Below are positions 1-5,826 of a stretch of 64,000 bases of DNA, one piece after another (within the stretch, counting starts at the first letter, position 1; every line of letters begins with the position of its first letter). Made by a program: the position numbers and the translations under genes. The notes below the pieces were generated by a model, which was not told the origin of the DNA, ran no database searches, and was given only the letters and a program-made list of their open reading frames with translations. Source of the stretch: Tepiditoga spiralis (GTDB lineage: Bacteria > Thermotogota > Thermotogae > Petrotogales > Petrotogaceae); NCBI RefSeq assembly GCF_014701195.1, contig NZ_AP018712.1:1816501-1880500 (forward strand), given 5' to 3'.

Positions 1-516
1 CAAAATTTACAGCTGTTTAATTATATGAATGTTTATGAAAATATTTTATCTGGATACGTTCATACCTTTAATAAAAATTCTTTTAATGATAAAAAATTAA
101 AATTAAAAGCATATGATGTCATTTTAGAAATTTCTGAATTGCTACAAATAAAAAACAGATTATTTTCTTATCCTTATCAATTATCTTATGGGATTTTAAA
201 AAGAGTAGAAATAGCTCGTGCAATAGTTTCTAAACCTAGTTTAATACTTTTTGATGAACCTGCTGCAGGCTTAAATAATCAAGAAACTTCAGAAATTCTT
301 TCCATTTTAAACTTATTAAAAAGTAAAGGAAAAACTATTTTACTTGTCGAACATGATATGTCTCTTGTAATGAAAGTTTCTGATGAAATAACGGTTATAA
401 ACTTTGGTAAAAAAATTGCTGAAGGAGCACCAAATGAAATTTCTTTAAATGAAGAAGTAATAAATGTTTACTTGGGAGGAGGAAAAAATGTTAAAAAAAA
501 TATTAGAAATAAATAA
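1..516 (+). CDS. livG: LivG-type ABC transporter ATP-binding protein (5' truncated by window edge)
   Basis: This is the C-terminal part of the ATPase of a branched-chain-amino-acid-type (HAAT) ABC importer. The reading frame is open from base 1. The first residues (QNLQLFNYMNVYENIL) match the Q-loop and following helix of LivG, so the ATG at base 25 is internal and the true start lies upstream of the window. Visible motifs are a degenerate signature LSYGILKRVEIARA (LivG proteins typically have LxYGxQRRLEIARA), Walker B LILFDEPAAGLN and the switch histidine in LVEHDM. It overlaps the start of livF by 29 bp, so the two are translationally coupled. The substrate cannot be read from the ATPase. 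A periplasmic binding protein gene is expected further upstream but is not in the window. Confidence 0.9.
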   Translation, partial: QNLQLFNYMNVYENILSGYVHTFNKNSFNDKKLKLKAYDVILEISELLQIKNRLFSYPYQLSYGILKRVEIARAIVSKPSLILFDEPAAGLNNQETSEILSILNLLKSKGKTILLVEHDMSLVMKVSDEITVINFGKKIAEGAPNEISLNEEVINVYLGGGKNVKKNIRNK

Positions 517-1192
517 CTTAATGGTCAACTATGGACAAGTTAAAGCTGTTAAAAATATTTCATTTGAAGTAAACAAAGGGGAAATTGTATCTATTTTGGG
601 GTCAAATGGTGCAGGAAAGACTTCAACTCTTTTTGGAATAATGAATGTTGTAAAAAATAAAGGAAGAATAAAGTTTAAAGGTATCAATATATCAAATATA
701 CCTACTTATAAAAGAGTTAAATCAGGATTGATTTTATGTCCAGAAAACAGAAGAGTATTTTATGAACTCTCTGTTGAAGAAAACTTAAAAATGGGGGCTT
801 TTATTCGTGGAAACATCAAAAAAAATTTAAAAAAAGTTTATGACTTATTTCCAAAACTCTATGATAGAAAAAAACAAAATGCAGGATCTTTATCAGGAGG
901 AGAGCAACAAATGCTTGCAATTGGACGTTCTTTAATGGGAGATCCAGAGTTATTTATGTTAGATGAACCTTCTCTTGGCTTAGCTCCAATAATAACAGAT
1001 GAAATTTTTAATATATTGTTAAAATTAAAAAAAGAAGGTATATCTATTTTATTAGTTGAACAAAATGCTATAAAATCTTTAGAAATAAGTGATAGAGCTT
1101 ATATTTTAGAAAATGGAAAAATTATTCAATCTGAAAATGCTAAGGAACTTTTAAATAATAAAAAGATCAAAAAAGCATATATTGGAATGTGA
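488..1192 (+). CDS. livF: LivF-type ABC transporter ATP-binding protein
   Basis: Second ATPase of the HAAT-family importer, 234 aa. Walker A GSNGAGKTST is at residues 38-47, followed by signature LSGGEQQ, Walker B LFMLDEPSLGL and the switch region LLVEQN, where the usual His is Gln, as is usual in LivF. I start it at the ATG at 488 rather than an in-frame ATG 24 bases upstream, because GGGAGGAGG lies just before 488 and LivF proteins begin with a short lead into the first strand. It overlaps livG by 29 bp and ends 9 bp before livH. Confidence 0.93.
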   Translation: MLKKILEINNLMVNYGQVKAVKNISFEVNKGEIVSILGSNGAGKTSTLFGIMNVVKNKGRIKFKGINISNIPTYKRVKSGLILCPENRRVFYELSVEENLKMGAFIRGNIKKNLKKVYDLFPKLYDRKKQNAGSLSGGEQQMLAIGRSLMGDPELFMLDEPSLGLAPIITDEIFNILLKLKKEGISILLVEQNAIKSLEISDRAYILENGKIIQSENAKELLNNKKIKKAYIGM

Positions 1193-1201
1193 GGTGAACT
1201 T

Positions 1202-2083
1202 ATGTTAATATTACAAAGTGTAATTTTAGGTATACCACAAGGTGCTTTATATGGACTAATGGCCATTGGTATATCTTTAATATTTAAAACTGTTGGAGTA
1301 ATGAATTTTTCTCATGGACATGCAGGAATGATTGGGGCTTATGTTGCATTTTCATTATATTTAATAACAAATAATTTTTTTGTATCTATAATTTTAGCAA
1401 TAATTTTTGGATTCTCACTTGGACTATTAATAGAAAAATTTTTAATGAGGCCAATAAAACATTTATCTCATGGAGCTATGTTAATAATAACTTTGGGATT
1501 ATTAATGGTATTTGAAGGATTGGCAATAATGATATGGGGAACAGAATTTAAAGTATTACCAGAAATTATTTCTCTTCCACCAGTTATTTTAAATTTAAAA
1601 GAAAATATTTTAGTGATGCCCGGAAATGATATATTTATAAGTATAATAGCTATTTTTATTTCCTTAAGCCTTACAATATTTTTAAAGTTTACAAAAATTG
1701 GAACAGCCATAAGAGCTCGTTCTCAAGATGAAATAGGTTCTGATGTTGTTGGAATAAATGTAAATTTGGTTGATTCTATAGTTTGGGGAATTGGAATATC
1801 TATTTCAGTAATAGTTGCTATATTGATTTCACCAAAAACTTACGTTAATCCTAATATGATGGTTAATATGCAATTATATGGTTTTACTGCTGGTGTTATA
1901 GGAGGTTTTTCAAGTTTTTTTGGTGCAATAATTGGAGGGTTAATACTTGGAATATTAGAAAAAATAGTTGGAATGTATATTTCACCTGATTATCAATTAT
2001 CAATTATATTATTATTAATTATATTAGTATTAGTTTTTAAACCAACAGGATTGTTCGGTAAAAGATCCGAAGGGAGAGTTTAA
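1202..2083 (+). CDS. livH: LivH-type branched-chain amino acid ABC transporter permease
   Basis: Inner-membrane permease of the HAAT importer, 293 aa, with about eight hydrophobic segments. The N-terminal stretch (IPQGALYGLMAIGISLIFK) and the cytoplasmic loop with GTAIRARSQDEIGSDVVGIN are typical of LivH and probably contact the ATPases. A GAGGTG ribosome binding site precedes the ATG. The stop codon is followed after one base by the livM-hydrolase start, so the two permeases are co-translated. The family carries branched-chain amino acids, urea, amides and some short carboxylates, so the substrate remains open. Confidence 0.93.
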   Translation: MLILQSVILGIPQGALYGLMAIGISLIFKTVGVMNFSHGHAGMIGAYVAFSLYLITNNFFVSIILAIIFGFSLGLLIEKFLMRPIKHLSHGAMLIITLGLLMVFEGLAIMIWGTEFKVLPEIISLPPVILNLKENILVMPGNDIFISIIAIFISLSLTIFLKFTKIGTAIRARSQDEIGSDVVGINVNLVDSIVWGIGISISVIVAILISPKTYVNPNMMVNMQLYGFTAGVIGGFSSFFGAIIGGLILGILEKIVGMYISPDYQLSIILLLIILVLVFKPTGLFGKRSEGRV

Positions 2084-2084
2084 T

Positions 2085-3794
2085 ATGAAAAAAATTATAT
2101 ATACTCTTTTAATAGGTTTAAGTTTAGGATTAATCTTTAGCTCAAAACCATTTATATTGTTAATTTTCTCAAGCATATTAATATTTTCAATAGTATCTCA
2201 AGGTTTAAATATTCTTTCTGGTTATACTGGACAAATATCCATAGGACATGGTGCATTTATGGCTATTGGAGCATATACAAGCACTTTTTTATCTATTAAT
2301 TTTAATACACCATTTATATTGAACTTATTGATAGTAATAATACTTTCTTCAATTTTAGGAATAATAATTGGAATGCCTGCACTTAGATTAAAAGGTTTTT
2401 ATCTAGCAATAGCTACTATGGCTTTTGGAATTTCTATTCAAGAATTAATTTCTTCTTTCTCTTTTCTAGGAGGACATATAGGGATAAGAAATATTCCTAA
2501 AATATTTAACAATGATTTTGGTATGTTTATTTTAAATTTAATATTTTATACATTATGTATTTATGTGAGTGATTTAATAGTAAATTCTACTATAGGGATA
2601 AAATATAAAATGGTAAGAGATAGTGAAGTTGCAGCTAAAGCTTATGGAATTTCTATTTCAAAAATAAAAGTACATGCATTTGTAGTAAGTTCTATTTATG
2701 GTGGAATTGCTGGGAGCCTATATGCACATACTATTGGTTATATATCTCCAACTGATTTTGGATTAAACACATCTTTAAACTTACTTGCCATAATAGTAAT
2801 TGGAGGTATGGCATCGTCATATGGTAGTTTAATTGGTTCTATTATAATTATTGGACTTCCTTTCTTATTCTCAAGAACTATGATACCCATGTCTTTTATA
2901 TTTGGAATATTATTAATAATTTTTGTTCTTTTTATTCCTAATGGAATTTTTTATGGTATATTAAAAGGATATTATAATTTTTTTGAATTACCTTTTATTT
3001 ATTTTATAAAAAAATATCATAAAAAATATAAAAAAGTAAATAAATTTGTAGAAATAAATAATAAAAAAATACATTATTATGAAAACGGAGAAGGCATACC
3101 AATAGTAATGATACATGGAAATTTTGCTTCTTTGAATTGGTTTAATCAAGTAAATACTATTGAAAATTTTAAAATTTATTCTTTAGATTTACCAAACTTT
3201 GGATTATCTGATAGAATAAATGAATTTAGTATTGATACATATTCTAATTATGTAAAAGAATTTATTATAACATTAAAAATTAAGAATCCAATAATAGTTG
3301 GTCATTCATTAGGTGGAGCAATTGCAATGAATTTAATTTTAAAAAATCCAAATTTATCTCAAAATTTAATTTTAATAAATTCATCTTCAATAGATGGATT
3401 AAAAACACCTGAAGAAAATTATCCAATACTAAATCTCTATAAAAATAATTTTTCACTCTTTAAAAAAGCTTTAAAATCAATCATGCCCGAAATGCAAAAT
3501 AAAAAACTTTTAAATGAATTAGTAAAAGATGGCCTTTTAATGAAATCTGAATGTTTTATAGAAAATGCTCGAGCCCTAGAAAAATATAATTATTTAAAAT
3601 TGAAAAATAAATTTAATGGAAAAATGTTATATTTGTATGGTAAAAAAGATACAATAGTTAGTACAACAATGGCTAAAAAAACAACTGATTTTTTTAATGG
3701 AAAATTAAAAATTATAGATCATGTTGGTCATTCATTAATACTAGAAGATCCAAATTTATTTATAACTATATTAAAAGATTTTTACAAGGAGTAA
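2085..3794 (+). CDS. LivM-type permease fused to an alpha/beta-hydrolase
   Basis: A 569-aa fusion. Residues 1 to about 300 are a LivM permease with several membrane segments, containing GYTGQISIGHGAFMAIGAY, PALRLKGFYLAIATMAFG and the loop VRDSEVAAKAYGI. After a lysine/tyrosine-rich linker, residues about 320-569 form a complete alpha/beta-hydrolase with oxyanion-loop motif VMIHGNFAS, nucleophile elbow GHSLGG (Ser408), probable acid Asp522 (GKKDTIVS) and His549 (DHVGHS). LivM proteins are usually 300-350 aa without an enzyme domain. From topology the hydrolase should lie on the cytoplasmic side, the same side as the ATPases, where it could cleave an ester or lactone as it enters. That role is inference. 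No stop codon or ribosome binding site is seen at the junction. The gene sits between livH and the tandem TetR gene. Confidence 0.88.
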   Translation: MKKIIYTLLIGLSLGLIFSSKPFILLIFSSILIFSIVSQGLNILSGYTGQISIGHGAFMAIGAYTSTFLSINFNTPFILNLLIVIILSSILGIIIGMPALRLKGFYLAIATMAFGISIQELISSFSFLGGHIGIRNIPKIFNNDFGMFILNLIFYTLCIYVSDLIVNSTIGIKYKMVRDSEVAAKAYGISISKIKVHAFVVSSIYGGIAGSLYAHTIGYISPTDFGLNTSLNLLAIIVIGGMASSYGSLIGSIIIIGLPFLFSRTMIPMSFIFGILLIIFVLFIPNGIFYGILKGYYNFFELPFIYFIKKYHKKYKKVNKFVEINNKKIHYYENGEGIPIVMIHGNFASLNWFNQVNTIENFKIYSLDLPNFGLSDRINEFSIDTYSNYVKEFIITLKIKNPIIVGHSLGGAIAMNLILKNPNLSQNLILINSSSIDGLKTPEENYPILNLYKNNFSLFKKALKSIMPEMQNKKLLNELVKDGLLMKSECFIENARALEKYNYLKLKNKFNGKMLYLYGKKDTIVSTTMAKKTTDFFNGKLKIIDHVGHSLILEDPNLFITILKDFYKE

Positions 3795-3797
3795 ATT

Positions 3798-4916
3798 ATG
3801 AATAAAAAAAATACAAAAGATAAAATAATAGATTCTGCCATTGAATTATTTTCAAAAAAATGGTTTGAAACAGTTTCAGTTGCCGAAATTTGTAGAAATG
3901 CAGGTGTTTCAAATGGAGTAATATATAGATATTTTAAAAATAAAAAAGTTATATTTGAATATCTTTTAAATTTATTACTCGAGTATATAGAAGAAATAAC
4001 ATCTACACTACAAGGAAATACTTCATCTGAAAAATTACAAGATTTTTCAGAAAAATTATTTAAAATTGCAATTGAAAAAAAATCTCTTGTTACTATTTTT
4101 AGAGAAGGGCAATTTAGATTCCCTGAATACGAAGAAAAATTAAGAAATATTTATATGAAAACCCTATCTGATATTTTCAATAAAAAAATATCAGAGGTTG
4201 AATATCTATATTTGTTATCTCCAATGAGATTTGTTAATATCAGATACGCTTATAATGCTCTTAAAACACCTATAGATAATTTAAAAAAATATTTGTTAAA
4301 TGGATTTTTTGATTATAAATTAAACGACCTTGAAAAACTATTTTCAAAACCAAAATTTATAAAATACAAAAAAGATAATAAAACTAAAAGTAAATTATTA
4401 GATTCTGGAATAAAATTATTTGGAGAAAACGGATATTTCAATGTTGGAATATATGATATAACAAAAGAAGCAGGTTTTTCAGTTGGAACATTTTATTTAT
4501 TATTTGATAGCAAAGATGAATTTTTAGAAGAAATAGTAAAAATAATTGGAAAAAAAGCAAGAGATTTTTTAAATACTAATCAAATTGATTCTTTAAATCC
4601 TCTTGAAAAAATAATAAGAAATATATACAATTTTATTTTATTTTTTAAAAAATATCATAATTATTATTTAATATTGAGAGAAGCAGAATTTGTTGTAAAC
4701 AAGGAAGTTGTTGAATATTATAACTTTTATGAAAAAATGTATAAAAAATTATTTGAAAGTTTTAACTATAAAGATAATATTTTATTAGCTAATATTTTTG
4801 TTGGATATAATCACTATATTGGTATAGAAAGCATATTTAGTAAAAATATTCCAAGTATAAAAATATTTTTAAAACAATTTTCAAAATATCTTTCAAATGG
4901 TATTAAACATATCTAA
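3798..4916 (+). CDS. Transcriptional regulator with two tandem TetR domains
   Basis: A 372-aa protein built from two TetR/AcrR units in one chain. The first helix-turn-helix covers about residues 5-50 (AGVSNGVIYRYFKNKK). The second covers about 194-240 (AGFSVGTFYLLFDSKDEF). Each is followed by a helical ligand-binding-type region. TetR proteins are normally 190-220 aa single units that dimerise, so this may act as a covalent pseudo-dimer; this is inferred from the layout. It begins 3 bp after the permease-hydrolase gene and ends the operon at a strong terminator, so it probably senses the substrate or product of the transporter and hydrolase and regulates the operon, whose promoter is outside the window. 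Confidence 0.85.
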   Translation: MNKKNTKDKIIDSAIELFSKKWFETVSVAEICRNAGVSNGVIYRYFKNKKVIFEYLLNLLLEYIEEITSTLQGNTSSEKLQDFSEKLFKIAIEKKSLVTIFREGQFRFPEYEEKLRNIYMKTLSDIFNKKISEVEYLYLLSPMRFVNIRYAYNALKTPIDNLKKYLLNGFFDYKLNDLEKLFSKPKFIKYKKDNKTKSKLLDSGIKLFGENGYFNVGIYDITKEAGFSVGTFYLLFDSKDEFLEEIVKIIGKKARDFLNTNQIDSLNPLEKIIRNIYNFILFFKKYHNYYLILREAEFVVNKEVVEYYNFYEKMYKKLFESFNYKDNILLANIFVGYNHYIGIESIFSKNIPSIKIFLKQFSKYLSNGIKHI

Positions 4917-4930
4917 AAAAAGTAAATAAT

Positions 4931-4972
4931 GAAAAAAAGATGATTTATTAACATAAATCATCTTTTTTTCAT
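4931..4972. terminator. Bidirectional rho-independent terminator
   Basis: A 17-bp stem (GAAAAAAAGATGATTTA at 4931-4947 and its complement at 4954-4970) with a 6-nt loop and A/T runs on both sides. It lies between the convergent tandem-TetR gene and the alpha/beta-hydrolase gene and can serve both. Confidence 0.85.
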
Positions 4973-5010
4973 TATAATTTCATTTTATTATATCAAAATT
5001 GATTATTCTT

Positions 5011-5793
5011 TTATTTTATAAATTTAATACAAATATTTAAATATTCATTCATTTTTTCTAAAAACATACCATGACCAGTTTCATTAAAAACTTTTAAAGT
5101 TGAATTTTTAATTTTTTTATTCATATTTTTCATTATATTTAAAGGAGTTATTATATCTTCATCGCCAGCAAGAATTAAAGTATCAGATTTTATAGTTTCA
5201 ATTTTATTTCTAACATCAAATTCTTTATTAGATTCTGCAAGTCTTATAAATCCATCATACCAATCTTTATTTAAATAATCTTTAAATATTTTTCTTCTTG
5301 ACATTAACCAATCATAATTATTGTTATAAAAATTTCTTGAATATATAATAGGTAATGCTATATCAAAAAATTTTTCTCCATCATATAGTTTTGCAGCTTG
5401 AATCCACAGCTGTCCTAAAACTTTTAAATAGTTATCAACATAATCAACCGTATTTGATAAAATTAATTTATCAACTTTTTCAGGAAATTTAAGTGTAAAT
5501 AATTGTGAAACCATTCCACCATAAGAAAGCCCAAGTAAATTAATTTTTTTTAAATTTAATTCTCCAATTAATTCATTTAAATCATTGACATGAATTGAAA
5601 TATCATATTTTTTTTCTTCATGCAATGACATTCCTTGATCTCTCATATCATAAGTTATTACAGTAAAATATTTTTCAAGAATCTTTACATGTTCAACCCA
5701 ACTTAAAGTATTCATCATTATTCCATTTAATAACACTAAAGGCTTACCACTTCCGTGAATTTCATAATTTATTTTTTTGTTTTTAGATAACAT
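5011..5793 (-). CDS. Alpha/beta-hydrolase
   Basis: A 260-aa cytosolic alpha/beta-hydrolase with no signal peptide. Catalytic residues are visible: Ser90 in the elbow GLSYGG, Asp213 in AGDEDIITP and His241 in ETGHGMFLEK. The order and spacing resemble 3-oxoadipate enol-lactonase/esterase-like members of the family, but the substrate cannot be called. The start is the ATG at 5793, preceded at 7 nt by GAGAGGTG. An in-frame GTG inside that ribosome binding site is not the start. It stands alone, convergent to the LivM-hydrolase/TetR operon, and is a second hydrolase close to that transporter. Confidence 0.85.
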   Translation of the reverse strand: MLSKNKKINYEIHGSGKPLVLLNGIMMNTLSWVEHVKILEKYFTVITYDMRDQGMSLHEEKKYDISIHVNDLNELIGELNLKKINLLGLSYGGMVSQLFTLKFPEKVDKLILSNTVDYVDNYLKVLGQLWIQAAKLYDGEKFFDIALPIIYSRNFYNNNYDWLMSRRKIFKDYLNKDWYDGFIRLAESNKEFDVRNKIETIKSDTLILAGDEDIITPLNIMKNMNKKIKNSTLKVFNETGHGMFLEKMNEYLNICIKFIK

Positions 5794-5826
5794 AAGAATC
5801 ACCTCTCATTTATTATATCACATTTA

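Follow-up and report, generated by a model that had tools for sequence, protein, structure and literature searches.

The window analysed here comprises 64,000 nucleotides of the Tepiditoga spiralis genome (contig NZ_AP018712.1, positions 1,816,501 to 1,880,500 of the forward strand) and carries, close to its start, a gene in which a LivM-type permease is joined to an alpha/beta-hydrolase. Genes upstream of the window are given in L036 numbering, in which the window position equals the L036 position minus 8000. The genes and features of the locus are as follows.

L036 2239-3258, same strand, upstream of the window: KASIII-like protein PRK06840, above the curated cut-off
L036 3258-3989, same strand, upstream of the window: SDR
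L036 about 4009-5322, same strand, upstream of the window: CoA-transferase
L036 5335-6537, same strand, upstream of the window: thiolase
L036 6550-7704, same strand, upstream of the window: binding protein
1..516, plus strand: LivG-type ATPase, truncated at the 5' end by the window border (complete gene at L036 7755-8516)
488..1192, plus strand: LivF-type ATPase (the ATG at 488 has a better ribosome site than the start at 464)
1202..2083, plus strand: LivH-type permease
2085-3794, plus strand: LivM-hydrolase fusion gene, open frame, 569 aa
2085..2957, plus strand: LivM permease domain of the fusion, residues 1-291 (Pfam and AlphaFold2 model)
2958..3038, plus strand: basic helical linker, residues 292-318 (alignment, AlphaFold2 model, start and charge analysis)
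3039..3791, plus strand: alpha/beta-hydrolase domain, residues 319-569 (Pfam and fold comparison), followed by the stop codon at 3792-3794
3306..3308, plus strand: codon of Ser408, nucleophile, invariant in 33/33
3648..3650, plus strand: codon of Asp522, acid, invariant in 33/33
3729..3731, plus strand: codon of His549, base, invariant in 33/33
3798..4916, plus strand: tandem TetR regulator, a single polypeptide with two TetR_N matches, conserved with the cluster
5011..5802, minus strand: second alpha/beta-hydrolase, ABH2, PcaD-like, often in relatives' clusters

The upstream enzyme genes, the binding protein gene, the LivG, LivF and LivH genes and the fusion gene form one operon-like run. The fusion gene has its own ribosome site, begins 1 base past the LivH gene and stops 3 bases short of the tandem TetR gene. 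An earlier note on this DNA, made from the window, had reported the TetR gene and a second hydrolase gene 1.2 kb away; both are real, and the binding protein gene that it expected upstream was found after the thiolase gene and before the LivG gene. Most of the stretches examined show these cluster genes around the fusion again, though their order varies. Two distant genomes (G138 and G263) have every gene of the cluster, but in them LivM is unfused and the hydrolases are encoded separately. Double TetR proteins (372-407 aa, two TetR units per chain) accompany the cluster (L036-L071), also in the distant genomes with an unfused LivM. In genome G012, a gene for a methyl-accepting chemotaxis protein lies between two cluster Liv operons (L046 13026-15026; L069 1026-3026), which suggests chemotaxis towards the same substrate.

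Analysis of the fused protein by Pfam, alignment and AlphaFold2 agreed with the earlier reading of one frame that joins LivM to a complete hydrolase with an intact Ser408/Asp522/His549 triad. The BPD_transp_2 (PF02653) match covers residues 24-279 (E 1e-33, 116.9 bits against a cut-off of 26.8) and thus the whole permease length, which identifies a LivM-type permease here and in 33/33 homologues. The Abhydrolase_1 (PF00561) match, above the cut-off, starts at residue 339 (E 2e-23, 83.5 bits) and, together with the Ser-Asp-His triad, identifies a serine-type alpha/beta-hydrolase. The E. coli-type LivM model (NF008450) gives the fusion 135.8 bits, below the curated NCBIfam cut-off of 366. In the AlphaFold2 model, built with 33 homologues (mean pLDDT 90.5, pTM 0.74), the permease and the hydrolase are both complete and are connected by an extended basic helix (288-314) that exits the membrane part, and the net charge of residues 284-318 is +6. 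Since there is no in-frame start codon within the linker and the first one, Met342, lies inside the hydrolase and lacks a Shine-Dalgarno sequence, a single polypeptide is expected. The C-terminus is predicted to be cytoplasmic because an EAA-like loop (about residues 167-190) would lie inside and is followed by an even number of crossings. The hydrolase domain should therefore face the cytoplasm, as the earlier note supposed and as family knowledge and the positive-inside rule would have it; the basic linker and the split homologues, whose hydrolase has no signal peptide, also support this orientation.

The fusion is not peculiar to the T. spiralis genome. Strong matches (E <= 1e-50) occur in 66 of 103 genomes of the phylum (Thermotogota), and about 49 of the 103 have a single match that extends over both domains. 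Because dozens of independent genomes carry the same fusion, neither an assembly artefact nor a sequencing stop or frameshift near the linker can explain it. Judging from these genomes, the LivM-hydrolase fusion is a common and apparently old trait of the phylum. A 390-genome search reaching other phyla found no fusion outside the phylum, the five outside matches being LivM only; no plasmid record had one place covering 80% of the fusion query, and a genome contig scan with one query sequence, which has a short reach, found single-domain relatives only. A Pelagibacter match (L001) was rejected as a fusion, being an ordinary LivH/LivM pair. In a genome of another phylum (G202), L060 9197-11071 is a 624-aa frame with LivM as its second half and probably LivH as its first half, i.e., a LivH-LivM fusion, and a KASIII-like gene lies nearby. 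The open-access literature yielded nothing relevant on LivM-hydrolase fusions, PRK06840 or Liv-type 3-hydroxybutyrate uptake. The permease-esterase fusion is real and conserved and, as far as that literature goes, undescribed.

Ser408, Asp522 and His549, along with H344-G345-N346 in the oxyanion region and S349, are identical in 33/33 aligned fused proteins, and H407-S408-L409-G410 is likewise invariant. Pairwise dN/dS was 0.05-0.22 for the hydrolase domain and 0.05-0.11 for the permease domain, showing that both are under purifying selection; the linker evolves faster than the domains in most pairs. A hydrolase catalytically dead in all relatives, the outcome that the earlier note had named as fatal to its reading, is rejected on these sequence grounds. 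In one genome (G066; L071 10568-12773) about 450 bp interrupts the gene inside the hydrolase and breaks the frame there; the insert has inverted ends, with TGTCAACTTAAG on both sides, and is probably a small mobile element.

In quick trees made without bootstrap, the fused, split and free hydrolase copies group apart from ABH2 (SH-aLRT 94); nested inside fused lineages are the free copies found in genus g11 and the split ones found in genus g25. The 34 fused and 3 split copies of the permease stand together. Constraining all fused hydrolase copies to one clade was rejected (AU p 0.00016). These trees fit one old fusion, followed by two fissions. In g11 the importer has been replaced by one of another Liv type (LivM about 30% identical), and the hydrolase is retained beside the cluster enzymes. 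In this genus (L039, L040, L041, L072-L075), in-frame stretches whose starts look like signal peptides lie ahead of the free hydrolase domain, and on its longest frames the hydrolase would look secreted. Most copies, however, have a strong AGGAGG-type site directly 5' of an internal ATG at the domain start. It is conceivable that there are two forms, one secreted and one cytosolic.

The upstream genes supply the enzymes that 3-hydroxybutyrate degradation would need, i.e., a dehydrogenase, a CoA-transferase and a thiolase with intact active-site residues. SDR S151/Y164/K168, CoA-transferase E257 and thiolase C86/H355/C385, which we take to be the active-site positions, are at least 95% conserved. 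All 17 SDRs (17/17) have an Asp at the end of beta-2, which is a sign of NAD use, suggesting that the SDR works in oxidation. The nearest relatives of the CoA-transferase are 4-hydroxybutyrate and butyryl-type enzymes, and the thiolase is of the acetyl-CoA acetyltransferase type. The KASIII-like PRK06840 protein has a strictly conserved Cys122, and its gene is tied to the CoA-transferase/thiolase cluster. Like the 3-hydroxybutyrate/acetoacetate degradation route (Bdh, Ato-type CoA-transferase and thiolase), the cluster has a dehydrogenase, a CoA-transferase and a thiolase that follow the order of the reactions, but it differs from that route in the type of its CoA-transferase, the extra KASIII-like protein and a dedicated ABC importer with a tethered esterase.

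The hydrolase domain and these enzymes also occur together across the phylum. Hydrolase domain and CoA-transferase were both present in 65 of the 103 genomes, with 1 genome having the hydrolase without the transferase, 4 the transferase only and 33 neither (Fisher p 2e-21, not corrected for relatedness), and 49/49 same-contig pairs lie within 15 kb. With PRK06840 the corresponding counts, also uncorrected for relatedness, are 51 with both, 15 with the hydrolase only, 4 with PRK06840 only and 33 with neither, and the two are at most about 17 kb apart in 38/38 same-contig pairs. Loss of the fusion and a change of the importer to another Liv type have not separated the hydrolase from the cluster enzymes.

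The best hydrolase model for the fused domain is the short-chain PHA depolymerase NF050089, at 98.5 bits against a cut-off of 300 and over the first 130 of 288 positions; since the cut-off is not reached, the domain resembles, rather than is, a PHA depolymerase. The same model is best for six further fused, split or free copies (107-126 bits), and ABH2-type proteins prefer the PcaD model. The closest solved fold is the B. thuringiensis PHB depolymerase PhaZ (8ynv), with many esterases, aryl esterases included, scoring nearly as well; an enzyme that degrades acyl-homoserine lactones also ranks high by fold. By sequence, the nearest solved structure is 5jd6, an esterase whose substrate is not stated. 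Compared with the intracellular short-chain PHA depolymerases (NF050089, PhaZ, 8ynv), the fused domain has the same triad order, but it is about 25% identical, shorter, far below the cut-off and without the longer lid insertion of PhaZ.

In six genomes, presumably Petrotoga-like (G008, G009, G012, G014, G016 and G018), a gene above the curated PHA depolymerase cut-off adjoins the KASIII gene of the cluster, the one in G012 scoring 449 bits and matching 8ynv at E 3e-103. As the six genomes are closely related, these neighbours represent one event. Among the indications of a substrate, this depolymerase neighbour carries the most weight. Four other members of the family have a PHA depolymerase gene elsewhere in the genome, and the T. 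spiralis genome has no PhaZ gene. Curated PhaZ genes were found in 11 genomes of the phylum (e.g., L069 12318-13211), with two copies in G003 (L081 8162-9151 and 10695-11516). The PHA synthase family PF07167 was found in 0/103 genomes and TIGR01836 was above its cut-off in 0/103, so that a PHB storage system with PhaC is missing from this sample. Turnover of the cells' own PHB was therefore rejected as the source of the ester, and an imported source would be needed. A secreted PHB depolymerase feeding the importer was also rejected, PF10503 being absent in the T. spiralis genome and weak or partial elsewhere.

The cluster enzymes, the family leaning of the hydrolase, the PhaZ neighbour and the absence of a synthase lead us to propose the following function. 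A Liv/HAAT-type ABC importer, made up of the binding protein, the two ATPases, LivH and LivM, would handle transport for a catabolic cluster, with a serine ester hydrolase attached to the cytoplasmic C-terminus of LivM. The cargo would be a short ester of a 3-hydroxyacid, and PHB-derived dimers or oligomers of 3-hydroxybutyrate, made by other organisms, are the most probable candidates. These esters could be cut in the cytoplasm by the tethered hydrolase together with ABH2 and, in Petrotoga-like relatives, the PhaZ depolymerase. The NAD-dependent SDR would then oxidize the freed hydroxyacid, the CoA-transferase would activate the 3-oxoacid and the thiolase would convert it to acetyl-CoA. Control of the cluster presumably lies with the tandem TetR. 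An importer plus cytosolic esterase that feeds a route from 3-hydroxyacid to acetyl-CoA is the probable function of the locus, and the assignment of 3-hydroxybutyrate oligoesters as its specific cargo is an even call. Evidence against the latter is that the fused domain scores far below the depolymerase cut-off, that the depolymerase neighbour is limited to one clade, that esterase folds are similar and that the likeness of the binding protein is broad. The uptake-and-hydrolysis system for a carboxylate or ester put forward in the earlier note is thus supported, and the upstream genes and the PhaZ neighbour sharpen it to 3-hydroxybutyrate-type esters. Its idea that the substrate is processed as it is delivered is speculative; two lineages have the hydrolase unfused beside the same enzymes. 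Because such free and split versions occur, tethering would be helpful at most and non-essential. It is a speculative and rather doubtful idea that the hydrolase docks where the importer opens into the cytoplasm, cuts the ester leaving the channel and traps the products, as a coupled transport-catabolism machine for polyester fragments.

The same architecture could serve another cargo, such as an aromatic ester, an acyl-homoserine lactone, a longer hydroxyacyl ester or a lactone or thioester, with the resulting acid passing to the CoA-transferase and thiolase. The closeness of 5jd6, the aryl esterases and lactone degrader among the best folds and the aromatic-acid binders among the nearest structures of the binding protein make this a possibility to be taken seriously, if a minority one; the neighbouring enzymes, however, suit a C4 3-hydroxyacid without extra steps, ring-cleavage or CoA-ligase genes do not recur in the cluster, and six genomes have a curated PHA depolymerase gene beside it. 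The binding protein (model pLDDT 91.5) resembles annotated leucine, aromatic-acid and fatty-acid binders about equally, and since amino-acid and carboxylate binders fit alike, its fold gives no choice of ligand. Its closest fold is a leucine-binding protein, which, along with the LivF, LivG, LivH and LivM family names, would suit an importer of branched-chain amino acids and its chance fusion with a hydrolase that has an unrelated housekeeping role. This is improbable, given that all importer subunits fall below the curated Liv and Urt cut-offs, that the cluster genes, of fatty-acid/ketone rather than amino-acid type, are nearly always found together with the hydrolase domain and that the fusion is retained across the phylum.

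Two further readings retain the cluster and alter the role of its parts. The enzymes could run in the building direction, from acetyl-CoA to 3-hydroxybutyrate as a fermentation sink, with the importer recovering leaked product. Thiolase and CoA-transferase reactions are reversible, and FabG and acetoacetyl-CoA reductase models also give the SDR good scores, but a complete importer, an NAD-type SDR signature and hydrolases that biosynthesis does not need make this direction very unlikely. That the hydrolase domain is a non-catalytic scaffold or regulatory part of the importer would explain a tether without obvious need, as free and split versions occur; with triad and oxyanion residues identical in every fused protein aligned and dN/dS low, it is the least credible reading considered.

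The locus shares subunit set, order and folds with Liv/HAAT-type ABC importers (LivKHMGF, UrtABCDE), and differs from them in the C-terminal alpha/beta-hydrolase of LivM and in the catabolic enzymes encoded in the same run. LivM-LivG and LivH-LivM fusions are known among Liv importers; these are likewise fused inside the importer, with a partner after LivM on the cytoplasmic side, whereas the partner here is a catabolic enzyme and not a transporter subunit. The bacteria that carry the fusion are anaerobic and probably heat-loving. Published expression work on Pseudothermotoga reads Liv operons as amino-acid uptake (PMC10057702), and those operons may differ from the one described here. The Liv-type importer of this group is probably mis-annotated as an amino-acid transporter. 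If the proposed function is true, "branched-chain amino acid permeases" across the phylum would belong to a pathway that scavenges polyester fragments, and the locus would provide a candidate importer for 3-hydroxybutyrate oligomers. It would also offer a natural permease-enzyme fusion for studying whether uptake is coupled to the first catabolic step, with the fused, split and free versions as controls.
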